Source: Enterocloster lavalensis (GTDB lineage: Bacteria > Bacillota > Clostridia > Lachnospirales > Lachnospiraceae). Taken from it: a stretch of 64,000 bases of DNA. Numbering within the stretch: position 1 is the stretch's first letter; each line of letters opens with the position of its first letter. Location: assembly GCF_902364025.1 (NCBI RefSeq), contig NZ_CABJCG010000013.1, positions 62,001 through 126,000 of the forward strand. The letters are read 5' to 3'. The notes beneath the pieces were generated by a model, which was given only the letters and a program-made list of their open reading frames with translations, did no database searches and had not been told where the DNA came from. Below, in pieces: positions 11,764-23,442 of the stretch. Position numbers and translations under genes: made by a program.

Positions 11764-12996
11764 TTAATACCGGTTGTCGAACACCCGCGTGGATTTTTTC
11801 TCGCTTCTGGGCAGCTCTCCCATATCCACCAGCTTGACCACCGGGGTCAGGCCGATGCGGCCCTTGAACTGGGTCTGAATCTCGATCTCCAGGGCGTAGC
11901 GGTTGACGCCGGGCTCGATCTCCACAAACAGGGTCAGCACGTCCTTGCCCATGAGGTGGTCCACCATGACCTGATACTCGCTGGAAGCCCCTTTGATCAC
12001 GGTGAGCAGCTCCTCGATCTGGCTGGGGAAGATGTTCACGCCCTTTACCTTCACCATGTCGTCCGTGCGGCCGATCAGGGTGTCGATGCGCGGGAAGGGG
12101 GAGCCGCAGGGGCAGTCTCCGGGCACGATCCGGGACAGGTCGTGGGTGCGGTAGCGGATCAGCGGCGCGCCCTGCTTGCGCAGGGTAGTGATCACAATCT
12201 CGCCCACCTCGCCGTCGGGCAGGACTTCGCCGGTCTTGGGATCCACGATCTCCAGATAGATGTAATCATCCCAGTAGTGCATGGCTCCCTGGGCCTGGCA
12301 GTTGATGGCGATGCCGGGGCCGTACACCTCGGTGAGGCCGTAGATGTCGTACAGGTCCACGCCCAGCTCATTGGCGATGCGCTGGCGCATCTTGTCGCCC
12401 CAGCGCTCGGAGCCGATCACGCCCTTTCTCAGGCAGATCTTATCCCCGATCCCCCGCTTCGCGATCTCCTCGGCCAGCAGCAGGGCGTAGGAGGAGGTGG
12501 CGCAGAGCACCGTGGATTTCATGTCCATCATCATCCGCAGCTGTTTGTCCGTATTTCCCGGCCCCATGGGAACCGTCATAGCCCCCAGGCGCTCCGCGCC
12601 CAGCTGGAAACCGATGCCAGCGGTCCACAGGCCGTATCCGGGGGTGATCTGGATGCGGTCCATGTTGGTGATCCCGGCCATCTCGTAGCAGCGCTTGAAC
12701 ATGAAGGCCCAGTCGTCCACGTCCTGCTGGGTGTAGGGAATAATCACCGGGGTGCCGGTGGTGCCGGACGAGGAGTGGATGCGCACGATCTTCTCCTCGG
12801 GTTCGGTCATCAGGCCCAGGGGATAGGCCTCCCGCAGGTCGCCCTTCCAGGTAAATGGGAGCTTCTCGAAGTCCTCCTGGGACTGAATCTGGTCAACGTT
12901 GACCCCTTCCAGCTTCTGCTTGTAAAAACATTCCTTTGAGGTAAGCTTTTTCAGCTGTTCCTTGATCAGAAGGAACTGGGATTCTTTCATTTTCAT
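11764..12996 (-). CDS. paaK: Phenylacetate-CoA ligase family protein (arylacetate-CoA ligase)
   Basis: 410 aa, an adenylate-forming enzyme of the PaaK family that joins arylacetates to CoA with ATP cleavage to AMP. The P-loop SSSGTTGTPVIIPYT (about 75-90), the YGLTEVYGPG motif (adenylate binding), and RYRTHDLSRI with the PaaK C-terminal domain (IFPSQIEELL...) are clear. It is the last gene of a unit with iorA and iorB, 41 bp downstream of iorB. The products of indolepyruvate or phenylpyruvate oxidation are aryl-acetyl-CoAs, so this enzyme either recovers arylacetate plus ATP or, in the opposite direction, activates arylacetates for reductive carboxylation. The T-box upstream of iorA favours the second reading (inference). 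Confidence 0.88.
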   Translation of the reverse strand: MKMKESQFLLIKEQLKKLTSKECFYKQKLEGVNVDQIQSQEDFEKLPFTWKGDLREAYPLGLMTEPEEKIVRIHSSSGTTGTPVIIPYTQQDVDDWAFMFKRCYEMAGITNMDRIQITPGYGLWTAGIGFQLGAERLGAMTVPMGPGNTDKQLRMMMDMKSTVLCATSSYALLLAEEIAKRGIGDKICLRKGVIGSERWGDKMRQRIANELGVDLYDIYGLTEVYGPGIAINCQAQGAMHYWDDYIYLEIVDPKTGEVLPDGEVGEIVITTLRKQGAPLIRYRTHDLSRIVPGDCPCGSPFPRIDTLIGRTDDMVKVKGVNIFPSQIEELLTVIKGASSEYQVMVDHLMGKDVLTLFVEIEPGVNRYALEIEIQTQFKGRIGLTPVVKLVDMGELPRSEKKSTRVFDNRY

Positions 12997-13037: not shown

Positions 13038-13631
13038 TTACCGGCTGCGCCCGTAGGCCAGGGCGCCCAGCTTCAGGGCCTTTAAGTTCATTTCCTTAAA
13101 TTTCTCCGGAACGCGCTTCTCCACGGCCTGCTCCATCTCTTCCATAGTCAGGCCGGTCAGACCGCTGGCCACAGCCGCGCCCAGCAGCACCACGTTCAGC
13201 ACCTTGGGGGAGCCGCATTCCTCACAGATGGCGGTTCCGTCCACCACTACCAGATTCTTTACCGTTTTCTCCAGATACTCCATCATCTCGCCGCCGGTGT
13301 AGCCGCCGCCCGAGAGGGACGCGGTGACCGGGCGGATGGGCGTGGGGCACACGATGGCGCAGCCGTCTGTTTTCAGGTAGGGAAGGCAGCGGACCGCCTC
13401 CGCGGGCTCAAAGCAGATCAGCACGTCCGCTCCCCGGTGGGGAATCATGGGGGAGTAAATATCCTGGCCGATCCGCACGTGGCTGACCACGCTGCCGCCG
13501 CGCTGGGCCATGCCGATGGTTTCCGCACCTCTGGCTTCCATTCCCTTTTCCATGGCCGCCAGGGCGATCAGGCGGGACGCCAGCACGGTTCCCTGGCCGC
13601 CCACGCCGCAGAGTAATACATTTTTCGTCAT
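13038..13631 (-). CDS. iorB: Indolepyruvate:ferredoxin oxidoreductase, beta subunit
   Basis: 197 aa, the gamma-type (POR/KOR C-terminal) domain that forms the smaller IOR subunit. The glycine-rich start VLLCGVGGQGTVLASRLIA and the motif RGAETIGMAQRGGSVVSHVR are diagnostic. Together with IorA it oxidatively decarboxylates aryl pyruvates to aryl-acetyl-CoA and reduces ferredoxin, or runs in reverse. The start is ATG 13631, which overlaps the iorA stop by one base (TGATG) behind GGAGGTG, so translation is coupled. Confidence 0.92.
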   Translation of the reverse strand: MTKNVLLCGVGGQGTVLASRLIALAAMEKGMEARGAETIGMAQRGGSVVSHVRIGQDIYSPMIPHRGADVLICFEPAEAVRCLPYLKTDGCAIVCPTPIRPVTASLSGGGYTGGEMMEYLEKTVKNLVVVDGTAICEECGSPKVLNVVLLGAAVASGLTGLTMEEMEQAVEKRVPEKFKEMNLKALKLGALAYGRSR

Positions 13632-15493
13632 CACCGCACCTCCTCTTCTATGGCGCCTACGGAGCAGATTCTGCCGCACAGGCCGCAGCCGGTACAGAGC
13701 CCGGACTCGATCTTTACCTGGCCGTCGTCCAGCACCAGGGCCGGGCAGCCGATTTCCGTGATACAGGTCCGGCAGTGGACGCAGCGGTCCGGGTCGATCC
13801 GGCAGCGCTTCGTGGGCTTTACAACGGCAATACAGGGGGATTTGAAGATCACCGCCTTGACGCCGTCCAGACCGGAGACCTCCTTCACCGTATTCACCGC
13901 CAGCTCCAGGTCCAGTGGATCCACGGTGACGATCTTCATCACGCCCACGGCCTCTAACACCTTCTCAATGCTCACCTTATCCACCACCTGGCCCATCATG
14001 GTGTGGCCGGTGCCGGGGTGTGGCTGGTGGCCGGTCATAGCCGTGGTGGAATTGTCCAGCACGCAGACGGTCAGGTTAGCCTGGTTGTACACCGCGTTTA
14101 CGATGCCGGTGATTCCCGAGGCGAAGAAGGTGGAGTCTCCCACAAAGGAGAAGTAGCGTTTGTCCGGCTCCACCCGGGAGAGTCCCTGGGCCATGGTGAT
14201 TCCGGCGCCCATACACAGGCAGGTGTCCACCATGTCCAGAGGTTTGGCGTTGCCCAGGGTGTAGCAGCCGATATCACCGCAGTAGACGCCCTCGATGGGA
14301 TCGCCCTCTCTCCCCTCGTTCAGGGACTCCACGGCCCGCTTGACCGCGTAGAAGGACGCACGGTGGGGACATCCGGCGCAGAGCACCGGCGGGCGGATGG
14401 GAAGGGGTGGCACCGGAAGGGACGGGGCTTCCGGCTCATCGCCTTCCAGGCTGTGCAGGTATTCTATGTAAGGATCGCCCAGCCAGGACTCCAGCGCAGC
14501 CCGGACGGACTCCACGCTGTTCTCGCCAGCGGGCTGTACATTTCCGGTGAGCTTTCCCTTTACGTTCACGGGCAGGTAGTGTCTGCCGCACAGGACCAGA
14601 AGCTCCGTCTCCAGCACCGGGTCCAGCTCCTCAACGGCCAGAACCTCCTTAAGGCCGTCCATGAACTTGAGCAGAAGGGACTCGGGCATGGGGTTGGGGG
14701 TGGCCACCTTGAGCACGCGGACGCCTTTGTAGCCCTTTAACGCCTCCATTACGGACTCGTAGTTGATTCCGTGGGTGATCACGCCTTTTGTGCAGCCGGC
14801 TCCCTCCTCCATATGCAGGTAATTGAAGCGGTAGGAGCTTAAATCCTCGCCGATCACCGGCAGGCGCTGCTCGATCATCCGGTGGTTGGCGTTGGAGAGG
14901 CGGGGGAAGATGACCCATTTACTGGAATCCTTGACGAAACCCTCGGGCTCCGGCCGTTTCAGGCGTTCCTTCACCTCCACGCTGGCGCAGCCGTGGCAGA
15001 CCCGGGTGGTGGGGCGAAACAACACCGGGGTGTGGTATTTCTCTGAATAGTCGAAGGCGTCCTCGATCATCTCGTAGGCCTCCTCGGGCGAGCTTGGATC
15101 GAACACCGGCAGCTTGGAAAACTGACCGAAATGGCGGGTGTCCTGCTCGGTCTGGGAGGAAATGGGGCCGGGATCGTCGGCTACAACCACCACCATACCG
15201 CCCTTCACTCCCACGTAGGCCAGACTCATCAGCGGGTCCGCGGCCACGTTTAAGCCTACCTGCTTCATGGTCACCATGGTTCTGGCTCCGGCGTAGGCGG
15301 CCGCGGCGGCCACCTCCATGCCGGCTTTCTCGTTGACCGACCACTCCACGTAGACGTCGCCCGGATTGTGCTTTGCCACGGTCTCTAAAATCTCCGTGGA
15401 CGGCGTTCCGGGATAGCCGGATACCACCTGGACGCCGGCGCGGATGGCGCCGAGGCCGATGGCTTCATTTCCCATTAAAAATGTTTTGGACAT
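13631..15493 (-). CDS. iorA: Indolepyruvate:ferredoxin oxidoreductase, alpha subunit
   Basis: 620 aa, the expected IorA size. The N-terminal pyrimidine-binding domain begins FLMGNEAIGLGAIRAGVQVV with SGYPGTPSTEI; the TPP domain carries CGDIGCYTLG...GDSTFFASG. Two 4Fe-4S motifs close the protein (CRIDPDRCVHCRTC and CTGCGLCGRIC, about 575-612). The start at 15493 is supported by AAAGGGG and by the N-terminal homology; the in-frame region upstream is intergenic tandem-repeat DNA. It is the first gene of iorA-iorB-paaK and is preceded by a T-box leader ending about 280 nt upstream. The enzyme is oxygen-sensitive and marks the host as an anaerobe. Confidence 0.93.
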   Translation of the reverse strand: MSKTFLMGNEAIGLGAIRAGVQVVSGYPGTPSTEILETVAKHNPGDVYVEWSVNEKAGMEVAAAAAYAGARTMVTMKQVGLNVAADPLMSLAYVGVKGGMVVVVADDPGPISSQTEQDTRHFGQFSKLPVFDPSSPEEAYEMIEDAFDYSEKYHTPVLFRPTTRVCHGCASVEVKERLKRPEPEGFVKDSSKWVIFPRLSNANHRMIEQRLPVIGEDLSSYRFNYLHMEEGAGCTKGVITHGINYESVMEALKGYKGVRVLKVATPNPMPESLLLKFMDGLKEVLAVEELDPVLETELLVLCGRHYLPVNVKGKLTGNVQPAGENSVESVRAALESWLGDPYIEYLHSLEGDEPEAPSLPVPPLPIRPPVLCAGCPHRASFYAVKRAVESLNEGREGDPIEGVYCGDIGCYTLGNAKPLDMVDTCLCMGAGITMAQGLSRVEPDKRYFSFVGDSTFFASGITGIVNAVYNQANLTVCVLDNSTTAMTGHQPHPGTGHTMMGQVVDKVSIEKVLEAVGVMKIVTVDPLDLELAVNTVKEVSGLDGVKAVIFKSPCIAVVKPTKRCRIDPDRCVHCRTCITEIGCPALVLDDGQVKIESGLCTGCGLCGRICSVGAIEEEVR

Positions 15494-15579
15494 TCTAATT
15501 CCCCTTTCTTTTGGCGCAGGTTGGGCGGGCGGCGCGGGCGGCCCGGCCATTCCTGTTCCCTGAGATGCGATTATCTGGC

Positions 15580-15750
15580 GGCGGATGTAAGGGCGCCGGG
15601 CCCTGAGGTGCGCTGAGTGCGGGCGGCGCGGCCTTTGGAATGCATTGGCGGATTGCGGCGCGGGGCTCCGAGGTACGCCGGCGGAATGCAGCTCGGGCCT
15701 CCGGCTTATGTCGGCGATCGCAGCGCGGGGCTCCGGGGTACCCCGGCCCG
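15580..15750. repeat. Degenerate ~33-bp tandem repeat in the iorA leader
   Basis: G+C-rich units starting GGCGGATG/GGCGGATT/GGCGGAATG/GGCGATCG can be aligned at about 15580, 15647, 15680 and 15713 (33-34-bp steps), each followed by GCGCGGGGCTCCG-like sequence. The array lies between the T-box terminator and the iorA start codon and encodes nothing I can support. It resembles in period, but not in sequence, the arrays near 56.4, 57.5 and 62.4 kb. Confidence 0.6.
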
Positions 15751-15772
15751 CCGGCAGTGCCGCCCGGTGCAT

Positions 15773-16054
15773 CTAAAAAACCTGCCCTCTCACTATCGAA
15801 AGGGCAGGTTCATCTCTCATATCCCTGCTATGCCACCTTATCGGATCGCAATTCACAAACATGCTGTCACATGCCTGGCCTGTAACGCGGGCCTGCGTCT
15901 CGGATAATCGGCGCGGCCTTAAAAGCCTGCCTTTCCCCTCACCCTCAGCGGTCCATTTGCCGTCCGGCTTATTACGGGGCTTCCACCTTCCCCCGCTCTC
16001 TGGAAATGCTCCCTACGGTTTGATCTCCGCTTCATCGGTTTATTGTTCAAGTTA
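15773..16054 (-). promoter_or_regulatory. T-box leader, predicted to sense tRNA-Trp, upstream of iorA
   Basis: Read on the minus strand, the leader has a Stem I base AGCGG (16031-16027) / CCGCT (15951-15947). It has an AGAGAG bulge and GGTGGAAG loop as in other T-boxes, and a specifier TGG followed by A (15955-15952). The linker contains GCGTTACAG. The T-box sequence AAGGTGGCATAGCAGG (about 15838-15824) contains UGGC. Its GCAGG can pair with CCTGC (15808-15804) as antiterminator. The competing terminator is AACCTGCCCT (15810-15801) / AGGGCAGGTT (15788-15779) followed by TTTTTT. UGG is the Trp codon and the C after UGG would pair with discriminator G73, which tRNA-Trp normally has. Uncharged tRNA-Trp should therefore raise iorAB-paaK expression. 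Confidence 0.85.
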
Positions 16055-16060
16055 TGGATA

Positions 16061-16089
16061 ATTATTGCAGATTTCGGGGCTTCTGTCAA
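16061..16089 (-). promoter_or_regulatory. Promoter of the T-box/iorAB operon
   Basis: Consensus TTGACA (16089-16084), exactly 17 nt, then AATAAT (16066-16061) with TGC directly before it (extended -10). Transcription would start near 16054. Confidence 0.85.
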
Positions 16090-16108: not shown

Positions 16109-16276
16109 GATATGAGGTAACAGTTCAGACGGCGGGAAAATTGGCGCGGAAAGCCGCGTCAAGCTCGCTTGTAAGCGGGTTTTTGTGTCAATTTTCACAT
16201 CGGATGGACATCCGATGCTTCTTGACCGGTCTTTTTCGGTCAAGAAGATGAGCCGTCTGAACTGTTACGATATGAG
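16109..16276. mobile_element. Palindromic mini-element 3 (MITE-like), 152 bp, perfect target duplication
   Basis: The core at 16117-16268 has perfect 17-bp inverted ends, GTAACAGTTCAGACGGC / GCCGTCTGAACTGTTAC. It is flanked by the perfect 8-bp duplication GATATGAG (16109-16116 and 16269-16276). It has the same four-stem layout as copy 2, with compensating differences in the stems. It lies between the uraA-type permease stop and the iorA T-box promoter. Confidence 0.9.
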
Positions 16277-20462: not shown

Positions 20463-21329
20463 TTATTCGTTCATGTTCAGGATATCAGCAACCTCCGCCT
20501 GGGAGATGCCGCACTGGGCGGAAATCTCAGCGGCGCTCATGCCCTGGGCGTTCAGACGCAGCACGCGCTTGGTCAGGGCGATGCCCTCGGTGATGCCCTT
20601 GGCAATCCCCTTCTGAAGCCCTTCCTGAATCCCCTTTTGAATCCCCTGCCGCAGCCCGTCATCCATCTTCCGCTGCAGCATCTCTTCAAATGTCATATAT
20701 TTCGCCTCCCATCTCCGGTCTTCCTTCAGCCATGTAACTCTCTTATGAAGCTTTGCCACGGTCTCGTCCTGCGTGCTCTGCACGAACTCGTCGGTGGAGT
20801 TCTCTAGGTACTGCAAAAAATGGATCAGCTCCTTCGGCACGCCCTCCGGGCGGGTCCCCCTGGTGTTCAAAAAGATCTTGCACGTTCCGTCCCCCAGAGG
20901 CTTGCCGGTCTCCAGGCAACGGTTTTCAAAGGTATAGCGGTAGTACCCCTCGCCAAAGGGATCAAAGGCGCAGATAAAAATCACGTAACTGGGCCTCAGA
21001 CGCTTGAAATCCTCCCCCGGCTTCAAGGCCGCCGCGTCCATCTCCGCCTGGTAGAACCGGCTGCGCAGCGGCAGATTCCCCTGGTCCTCATTCTGCATCT
21101 CCAGATCGTACTCCGCCTCCATGCTGTCCCGGGCGTACACGTCCAGCCTGACGCTGCGGAACTCTTTGCTGTAAAGGATGCTCTTTTCCGGCTGCACCAT
21201 CACCTTATACACCGGCTTCTGCAGAATCACCTGCAGCACCAGGGCGCAGGCCTCAGGGTCGCTGAAGGCCAATGAAAACAGGAACGCATTGCTCAGATCC
21301 AGTTGCTTGAATTGCTCTTCGGCTTCCAT
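20463..21329 (-). CDS. Rpn family recombination-promoting nuclease / PD-(D/E)XK putative transposase
   Basis: 288 aa. The N-terminal part has the Rpn/transposase_31-like layout: QLDLSNAFLFSLAFSDPE, then the nuclease core RLDVYARDSMEAEYDLEMQ (Asp and Glu-x-Gln of the PD-(D/E)XK fold) and PSYVIFICAFDPFG. The C-terminus carries a repetitive coil of GIQKGIQEGLQKGIAKG type (about 230-250) and a small helix-turn-helix (GMSAAEISAQCGISQAEVADIL). Such proteins are abundant and variable in Lachnospiraceae. E. coli RpnA stimulates RecA-independent recombination. ATG 21329 has GGAGG 4 nt upstream. It stands alone between terminator-like elements. Confidence 0.85.
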   Translation of the reverse strand: MEAEEQFKQLDLSNAFLFSLAFSDPEACALVLQVILQKPVYKVMVQPEKSILYSKEFRSVRLDVYARDSMEAEYDLEMQNEDQGNLPLRSRFYQAEMDAAALKPGEDFKRLRPSYVIFICAFDPFGEGYYRYTFENRCLETGKPLGDGTCKIFLNTRGTRPEGVPKELIHFLQYLENSTDEFVQSTQDETVAKLHKRVTWLKEDRRWEAKYMTFEEMLQRKMDDGLRQGIQKGIQEGLQKGIAKGITEGIALTKRVLRLNAQGMSAAEISAQCGISQAEVADILNMNE

Positions 21330-21417
21330 CTCTCCTCCGTTCCGGCACAAAGAGCGTAAGCTGTTTCCTTTTCCTGATTCGATTATACTAAAACCCCGGC
21401 CCGATTTCAACCGCAGT

Positions 21418-23400
21418 TTACCCTTTCAGGCAGTGCATATAAGACTCCGCCGCGTCCCAGTTTACGGTAAATCCCGCGCCGTGGGAGCAGAACACCGAGG
21501 CCGAGGTGTGCTCCGTGTCCGCGCCCTTGTCGTATCCGGTCTGCCGGATCACTTCCTCAGGATTGTGGCATATATCATAGCCCGCGCTGACGGCGGAAAT
21601 GGACGCGCTGCCCCGGGTGGCCGAGGCCAGCTCCACGCTGTAATCCATAAAGGAAGCCACCGGACCGCGGCCCCGGACAATCACCACGTCCCCACACTGC
21701 TCCGGCAGCTGGGCCTGTCCGAACCGTTTTCGGATATCCGAGAGAATCCGGCCCAGGTATTCCGCCGGGGCGCTGATCTCAAACCGGTACCAGGGCTCCA
21801 GAAGCAGATTTTGCGCCTTCTCCAGCCCCTGGCGGATGGCCCGGTAGGTGGCCTCCCGGAAATCCCCGCCCTCCGTGTGTTTTAAATGGGACCGCCCGTT
21901 GGTCAGAACCACCCGGACGTCGGTGAGAGGCGAGCCGGTGAGAATCCCCCGATGCGTCCGCTCAAACACGTGGGTGCGCACCAGATTCTGATAATTTACG
22001 GAAAGCACGTCCACATGGCAGCGGCTCTCAAAAGTAATCCCGCTCCCCCGCGGCCCGGGCTCCAGCAGCAGATTGACCTCCGCGTAATGACGCAGCGGCT
22101 CATAATGTCCGTAACCCGCCACCGGCGCTGCGACCGTCTCCTGATAAAGCACCTGGGGCGGCGCAAATTCCACCTCCACGCCAAACCGGTCCTGAATCAG
22201 GCGTTTTAACACCTCCAGCTGGATCAGACCCATGATGCGCACGCAGATCTGTTCCTCGCCGCCCGGCATCCTGCGGCAATCCACCGCCATCTGCGGGTCC
22301 TCATCCTCCAGAATCCTCAAAATCTCCAGCAGCCGGTGATTGTCCGTTCCCTTTCCGGCCAGCGCCCGGGCTTCCAGGGCGGGTACCATCTGGAAATCCA
22401 CCTGCTCCGCCGCAGACGCCCCGCCCTCCAGGCTGATCCGCTGTCCGCAGACCGGAACCGAAAGCCCGGTCACCGCCGCAAGGTCTCCTGCCTCAGCCTG
22501 CTCCATGGCCCCGTATCTGGTCCCAAAGCAGCAGAATATCTGGTTTACCTTCTCCCGCACCGGCTCCCCATCATTTCCCATAAACTGGAATTCATCCCGT
22601 GTCCGAAGCATCCCCTGTTCCACCTTGATAAAGGTGATCCTGCGCCCTCCGGCATCCCGGCGCACCTTGTAGACCAGGCCGGAAAATGTTTCCCGGGGCC
22701 GGTAGTCCGTTGCGGTCAGGCGGTCGAACACCTGCCAGAACTCCCCGATTCCGCTGTCCCTCAGCGCAGAACCGGCCATGGCGATAAACGCCCGGCGCTG
22801 CCGGATCAGGTTCTGCAGCATTTCCAGGCCCATTTCCCTGGTCAGTTTTCCCTCCAGATAGGCCTCCAGGACCTCCTCGTCCCGCTCGGCCACAAACTCG
22901 GCCAGCGCTCCCTCCATGCCAAGCTCCTCAGGGCCGCCGATCAGCACGGCGTCCTCCGTGAGGCGGCTGCGGACAGCTTCCATGGCGCGGACGGCATCCG
23001 CGCCCTCCAGGTCCATTTTATTGATGAAAAAGAAAACCGGCACCCGGTAGCGCTCCAGCAGTTTAAACAGTGTGACCGTGTGGGCCGGGACTCCGCCGGT
23101 ACCGTCCAGAAGCAGAACCGCGTAGTCCAGGGCCATCACCGCCCGCTCCGTCTCCGCGCTGAAGTCCACGTGTCCCGGCGTATCCAGCAGGTAGTAGGTG
23201 TTTTGGTTGTACTCAAAATAGCCCTGATCCGCGAATATGGTGATTCCCCGCTCCCGCTCGATGGGGTTTGCGTCCATCACCGTGTCCCGGCTGTCCACCC
23301 GTCCCGGGGTGCGGATGGCCCCTGCGTGGTACAGAAGCTGCTCGGAAAATGTGGTCTTGCCCCCATCCACGTGGGCCAGTATGCCGATTGTTTTTTTCAT
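21418..23400 (-). CDS. TetM/EF-G-like translational GTPase
   Basis: 660 aa, colinear with ribosomal protection proteins (Tet(M)/Tet(O)) and EF-G. G1 AHVDGGKTT (9-17), switch I RERGITIF, G3 DTPGHVDF, G4 NKMD, then the beta-barrel, domain III (CVRIMGLIQLEVLKRLIQDRFGVEV) and domains IV/V. It belongs to the uncharacterised TetM-like GTPases found chromosomally in many Clostridia, so tetracycline protection should not be assumed. The domain IV loop is SVNYQNLVRTHVFERTHRG rather than a sequence I recognise from Tet(M). I start at ATG 23400 (MKKTIGILAHVDGG); the ribosome binding site is weak (AAGGCGG). It is followed downstream by the Rpn gene after 88 bp and preceded by repeat DNA. Confidence 0.85.
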   Translation of the reverse strand: MKKTIGILAHVDGGKTTFSEQLLYHAGAIRTPGRVDSRDTVMDANPIERERGITIFADQGYFEYNQNTYYLLDTPGHVDFSAETERAVMALDYAVLLLDGTGGVPAHTVTLFKLLERYRVPVFFFINKMDLEGADAVRAMEAVRSRLTEDAVLIGGPEELGMEGALAEFVAERDEEVLEAYLEGKLTREMGLEMLQNLIRQRRAFIAMAGSALRDSGIGEFWQVFDRLTATDYRPRETFSGLVYKVRRDAGGRRITFIKVEQGMLRTRDEFQFMGNDGEPVREKVNQIFCCFGTRYGAMEQAEAGDLAAVTGLSVPVCGQRISLEGGASAAEQVDFQMVPALEARALAGKGTDNHRLLEILRILEDEDPQMAVDCRRMPGGEEQICVRIMGLIQLEVLKRLIQDRFGVEVEFAPPQVLYQETVAAPVAGYGHYEPLRHYAEVNLLLEPGPRGSGITFESRCHVDVLSVNYQNLVRTHVFERTHRGILTGSPLTDVRVVLTNGRSHLKHTEGGDFREATYRAIRQGLEKAQNLLLEPWYRFEISAPAEYLGRILSDIRKRFGQAQLPEQCGDVVIVRGRGPVASFMDYSVELASATRGSASISAVSAGYDICHNPEEVIRQTGYDKGADTEHTSASVFCSHGAGFTVNWDAAESYMHCLKG

Positions 23401-23442
23401 AATCCCATTCCGCCTTCCATTGTGTCTGTCGCTCCCCATTTT

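Follow-up and report, generated by a model that had tools for sequence, protein, structure and literature searches.

In a 64,000-nucleotide stretch of Enterocloster lavalensis DNA (hereafter the window), a T-box RNA that is almost certainly specific for tRNA-Trp precedes an iorA-iorB-paaK operon. From this control and the gene content, we infer that the operon serves tryptophan acquisition by reductive salvage of indoleacetate, a reading of direction and substrate to which we assign a probability of roughly three in four. T-boxes turn supply genes on when their tRNA is uncharged, and by its sequence the leader appears to be an ordinary T-box RNA with an unusual target.

The first-pass annotation had reported a promoter, Stem I, a UGG specifier, UGGC, antiterminator and terminator alternatives and six U residues between positions 15773 and 16089; all of these were located on the minus strand, in a leader running from 16089 to 15775 that fits this interval (Table 1). 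The promoter hexamers match the consensus at 11 of 12 positions. A promoter scan gave one hit in 901 bases, where shuffled sequence yields 0.6 (sd 0.7); this is weak taken alone. TTGACA with AATAAT or TATAAT was seen by eye upstream of the orthologous leaders of L014, L015, L017, L019, L096, L098 and G001, the nearest genome, whose IorA is 97% identical to that of the window. The specifier loop reads CAAA-UGG-ACC. Antiterminator and terminator have one arm in common and are mutually exclusive, and the U run is present. Compared with shuffled sequences, the terminator is far more stable (-24.0 kcal/mol, z -8.2) and the antiterminator unexceptional (-11.7 kcal/mol, z -1.5); a simple terminator scan returned none, although the hairpin and six U residues are present. 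The bulge departs from the usual UGGNACC, with AUA replacing ACC in both the window and G001, and the bulge of the G001 TyrS leader (UGGUAGC) is likewise not ACC. Taken together, these elements are those of a leader predicted to work as a switch.

Table 1. Predicted elements of the T-box leader and the genes downstream of it (positions in the window).
Feature	Position	Strand	Basis or detail
Promoter	16061..16089	-	-35 TTGACA 16089-16084, 17-bp spacer, -10 AATAAT 16066-16061
T-box leader	15797..16044	-	RF00230 alignment, full model
Stem I: specifier loop, AGAGA bulge side, GGUG distal loop	15943..16038	-	RF00230 alignment
Specifier codon UGG (Trp), then A	15953..15955	-	RF00230 alignment; position calibrated 8/8 in G001
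Stem III (CGCAGGCCCGCG), then UUA	15886..15897	-	RF00230 alignment
Antiterminator	15800..15839	-	AAGG 15839-15836/CCUU 15803-15800 and GCAGG 15828-15824/CCUGC 15808-15804
tRNA-end bulge, 7 nt, UGGCAUA	15829..15835	-	inside antiterminator
Intrinsic terminator hairpin with U6 (15780-15775)	15775..15811	-	5' arm common to antiterminator
Spacer from terminator to iorA start, 71% GC	15494..15774	-	281 nt
iorA, indolepyruvate:ferredoxin oxidoreductase alpha subunit, 620 aa	13631..15493	-	TIGR03336 714.6 bits, cut-off 650.9
iorB, POR gamma / IOR beta domain	13038..13679	-	PF01558 136 bits
paaK-like AMP-forming ligase	11764..12996	-	TIGR02155 390.4 bits; PDB 4r1l E 2.4e-110

The spacer between terminator and iorA is the longest of those measured, at 281 nt; it measures 127 nt in G001, and in L014, L015 and L096 it spans 42-58 nt. 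It leaves the iorA frame open up to 15772, so that automated gene callers may extend the protein by 93 residues; the start is most likely the ATG at 15493, which is conserved among relatives, and not the ORF start at 15772. On the upstream side of the leader, some 28 bp from the -35 box, lies a 152-bp palindromic multi-hairpin element (16117-16268) with 17-nt inverted ends, flanked by 8-bp direct repeats (GATATGAG) at 16109-16116 and 16269-16276. G001 has the same site without the element, and its 16-nt end occurs 25 times in G001 and is present, counting G001, in 11 of 17 genus genomes; on these features it is a MITE-like repeat family. Also in the window are an Rpn-family nuclease/transposase-like protein (20463-21410, TIGR01784) and an EF-G-family GTPase (21418-23439) that resembles ribosomal protection proteins and reaches none of the curated cut-offs among the listed full-protein models.

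A covariance search with Rfam model RF00230, which the first-pass annotation had proposed, aligned the leader end to end (model positions 1-219 of 219) with an E-value of 7.3e-9 in a 1-kb search, at a score of 46.5 bits that lies below the gathering cut-off of 93 bits. The leader was thus found by E-value search; the Rfam scan of the window at the gathering threshold listed nothing, and the T-box falls short of the curated score. Orthologous leaders before iorA, at 36.7-67.4 bits, are also below this cut-off. So are 6 of the 13 T-boxes detected in G001, including those before TrpE, ValS, IleS and AspS, with the trpE T-box (L010) at 74.8 bits against the 46.5 bits of the window leader. Because 6 of 13 T-boxes in G001 miss it, 93 bits is strict for this lineage, and the window leader is still classed as a T-box.

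The UGG specifier and the tRNA-end base had both been taken to point to tRNA-Trp, an assignment that our calibration bears out. As controls we used eight G001 T-boxes that stand before a tRNA ligase or TrpE, as named by HMM; the IleS and TrpE proteins are cut by the fetched stretch and have HMM scores below cut-off. The same position gave the expected codon in all eight: UAC for TyrS, CUG for LeuS, UUC for PheS, CCG for ProS, GUA for ValS, AUC for IleS, AAC for AspS/tRNA-Asn and UGG for TrpE, with the IleS and AspS leaders read by eye from raw sequence and the others from alignments. A first pattern for the tRNA-Trp gene found it in 0 of 17 genomes; a looser one found it in G001, where the discriminator is G (G73), which fits the window bulge UGGC. 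The corresponding bulge base is C in the window, G001, MCC353 and chh4-2; the other orthologous leaders have U. A U at this position is consistent with a Trp leader, as the one before G001 trpE has it too.

Eight distinct genomes have a UGG T-box in front of iorA, either directly or with transporter genes in between: that of the window, G001, G003, G004, G008 (L014), G012 (L015), G269 (L017, MCC353) and G414 (L019, chh4-2), counting the duplicate genomes G008/G415, G012/G416 and G269/G413 once each. The specifier is that of tRNA-Trp, not Phe or Tyr, in 8/8, and both alternative hairpins recur in the seven further genomes. A MAFFT alignment of mixed T-boxes was poor in its 3' half. In a separate set of eight aligned 3' halves of these leaders, 97.5% of cells in both helices are paired, and one pair (22-37) at the end of helix A2 is lost in the window and G001. 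Two of ten antiterminator pairs and two of ten terminator pairs are changed on both sides. The covariation score was reached by 11 (antiterminator) and 12 (terminator) of 500 shuffles, and the count of double-changed pairs, reached by 248 and 74 of 500, is not above shuffles. Because the aligned sequences are related, covariation lends modest support only.

In a 117-row IorA tree built by a quick method, from which IorA fragments shorter than about 500 aa (L099 among them) were excluded, the T-box rows fall within one 12-row clade (support 99) comprising 11 rows with a T-box and one without, duplicates included. No T-box was seen in the 11.8 kb of the clade member L016, from a metagenome-assembled genome (MAG), or in the 1.5 kb upstream of L099 in G010, a fragmentary relative. 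Outside the clade, an Rfam scan found a T-box within about 1.5 kb at none of 21 iorA loci. These derive from the 29 family loci L138-L166, of which 22 were scanned, minus L138; the latter belongs to MCC353, where the T-box, 3.3 kb ahead of iorA, is outside the stretch scanned for that locus. In motif searches over 80 iorA loci, a fixed T-box-core motif flagged L014 and L015 together with chance-like matches, and requiring a second motif flagged L015, L017, L019 and one chance match and missed L014. Rfam was therefore applied to chosen loci, with the E-value scan among the 80 run on L014-L017 and also on the genomes behind L014-L017 and L019.

Three of the 13 G001 T-boxes carry UGG, and these precede trpE of a trpEGDCFBA operon (its TrpA is cut by the fetched stretch), a TrpX-type transporter and iorAB-paaK. 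The TrpX-type substrate-binding protein, encoded with a permease and an ATPase, scores 256 bits with NF041285, below the cut-off of 390. A T-box lies directly upstream of trpE in 7/7 checked genomes having a TrpE match, its specifier having been read in G001 and G414 only. In two genomes, MCC353 and chh4-2, TrpP-type ECF transporter genes stand between the T-box and iorAB-paaK: the order in MCC353 is T-box, TrpP-family protein (PF17099, 39.6 bits; cut-off 27.2), two ABC ATPases, a CbiQ-type protein and iorA-iorB-paaK, and chh4-2 has the same order by reading. A further UGG T-box in MCC353 precedes a TrpX-like protein, named by likeness. Since the UGG T-box class is common to tryptophan synthesis, the TrpX transporter and iorAB-paaK, the operon belongs to a tryptophan-acquisition regulon. 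At L221 8529-9617 in MCC353, a UGG T-box also sits, oddly, in front of a glycerol dehydrogenase-type, iron-containing alcohol dehydrogenase with NCBIfam scores below cut-off.

The operon itself encodes an IorA with PF02775, PF01855 and Fer4 domains, in keeping with a TPP- and ferredoxin-type oxidoreductase. Its IorB is below cut-off for all NCBIfam IOR beta models (best 183.9 against 230), and the true iorB start probably lies inside the reading frame listed in Table 1. The third product falls under the PaaK equivalog cut-off of 646.3 bits for TIGR02155, and its closest PDB chains are deposited as phenylacetate-CoA ligases; by these comparisons it is a PaaK-like relative within the AMP-forming family, and we do not assign it as a phenylacetate-CoA ligase proper. 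At 66 of the 80 iorA loci paaK follows iorA; at the other 14 no call was made for iorA or for paaK, in several cases because the contig breaks off. A second type of IorA, 43-45% identical (L100-L103), occurs in G003 and G008 and is the sole IorA found in G015 and G017; it has a paaK-like reading frame upstream and no T-box by motif search.

Whether the operon replaces tryptophan synthesis was assessed on the premise that genomes with iorA should lack trpC more often. Over 397 family genomes there was no such association: of the 49 genomes with iorA (E <= 1e-200), 33 had trpC over cut-off, as did 253 of the 348 others (p 0.50). A TrpE match in 7/9 relatives checked also goes against replacement, a reading that is thus unsupported. 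No TrpC or TrpE match was found in MCC353 (a 97% complete draft of about 190 contigs), which has its ior operon under a Trp T-box, or in the MAG behind L016, which showed no T-box either; an assembly gap could hide an entire trp operon.

Compared with the T-boxes of tryptophan genes (RF00230, such as L010 before G001 trpE), the window leader has the same Stem I, UGG, Stem III, UGGN bulge and antiterminator/terminator pair, but its target is iorAB-paaK and not chorismate-based synthesis, a transporter or a tRNA ligase. Mechanistically, charged tRNA-Trp would let the leader fold its terminator. With uncharged tRNA-Trp, the anticodon would bind UGG and the GCCA end would bind UGGC; the antiterminator would then form and iorA-iorB-paaK be transcribed. 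PaaK would then convert indoleacetate and ATP to indoleacetyl-CoA, IOR would use reduced ferredoxin to carboxylate this product, giving indolepyruvate, which a presumed aromatic aminotransferase of general type would turn into tryptophan.

Rumen bacteria use arylacetates, according to older literature. The excerpts of PMC13285125, a 2026 paper, cite a proposal that the anabolic IOR of Methanobacterium thermoautotrophicum runs in reverse. That archaeal enzyme shares its family with the window IOR, and its proposed direction is arylacetyl-CoA + CO2 to arylpyruvate, whereas the window IOR comes with an AMP-forming PaaK-type ligase and stands under a T-box. The same paper argues that an AMP-forming arylacetate-CoA ligase beside Bacteroides IOR points to aromatic amino acid biosynthesis; the gene pairing is that of the window operon, but in a different phylum, and these excerpts mention no Trp-specific regulator. 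A search for 'T-box' with 'indolepyruvate' returned no paper in the open-licence literature, outside which most subscription journals lie, and the main text of a large gut amino acid pathway reconstruction (PMC9026213) does not mention an indoleacetate route. Reverse IOR is already known or proposed elsewhere and the kind of T-box RNA is known; the target did not turn up in the open-licence search.

The first-pass annotation had also proposed that the enzyme works backward to make tryptophan. A tRNA-Trp T-box on iorAB-paaK in eight genomes, the UGG regulon and the AMP-forming ligase all strengthen this proposal, with direction and substrate being what we infer from them. The chief competitor, which we consider unlikely, is a broad arylacetate assimilation in which phenylacetate and 4-hydroxyphenylacetate are converted alongside indoleacetate, or even more than it, and tryptophan shortage is merely the signal chosen by this lineage. 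Characterised IORs act on phenyl-, hydroxyphenyl- and indolepyruvate (PMC13285125, excerpts), and the main substrate may therefore be something other than indoleacetate; among PDB chains the ligase is closest to those deposited as phenylacetate-CoA ligases, and the frequent iorA-paaK pairing goes without a T-box at the scanned loci outside the clade. Against this breadth, the T-box reads tRNA-Trp and not tRNA-Phe or tRNA-Tyr in every genome that has it before iorA, and a TrpP-type gene sits inside the MCC353 operon.

Reductive salvage is favoured over oxidation because the ligase is of the AMP-forming PaaK type and the operon shares Trp T-box control. In an oxidative role, IOR would degrade indolepyruvate to indoleacetyl-CoA, PaaK would run backward or do something else and the T-box would serve a need other than supply. 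Precedents are the Bacteroides thetaiotaomicron IOR, reported in phenylalanine-to-phenylacetate conversion, and the IOR of Pyrococcus peptide fermentation (both cited in PMC13285125), and the 2-oxoacid oxidoreductases of oxidative Stickland metabolism have the same 2-oxoacid:ferredoxin chemistry as the window IOR. As described in that paper's excerpts, however, the Stickland enzymes run in the opposite direction and are tied to acyl-CoA use by an ATP-yielding phosphotransferase and kinase or an ADP-forming ligase, whereas the window has an AMP-forming one. A degradative role would also be self-defeating, since tryptophan starvation would induce a tryptophan-consuming step, and control shared with trpEGDCFBA and TrpX in G001 points to supply; we regard oxidative use as highly improbable. 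Least credible of all is that a once functional Trp T-box gave rise to a leader which has stopped responding in the window strain: the low Rfam score, the AUA bulge and lost 22-37 pair common to the window and G001, and the long GC-rich spacer would suit such decay, but the leader retains an intact promoter, UGG, UGGC, both hairpins and U6, the G001 TyrS bulge is also non-canonical and the orthologous leaders score similarly low.

Reductive salvage of indoleacetate could be taken further, to a tentative and rather doubtful picture in which the Trp switch drives CO2-fixing indoleacetate salvage in gut Lachnospiraceae. In species without trpE and trpC, such as MCC353, the TrpP-type ECF transporter might then import indoleacetate, supplied by neighbours or diet, instead of tryptophan, and salvage would be the cell's sole means of making the amino acid. 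In gut anaerobes the direction of IOR is disputed, the Bacteroides genes being cited both for phenylalanine-to-phenylacetate conversion and for the reverse (PMC13285125, excerpts), hence the interest of a tRNA-Trp switch on iorAB-paaK as an independent pointer to the indoleacetate-consuming direction in one clade. If the salvage reading is true, some gut bacteria would be indoleacetate sinks, and genomes without trp genes would not always be those of strict tryptophan auxotrophs.
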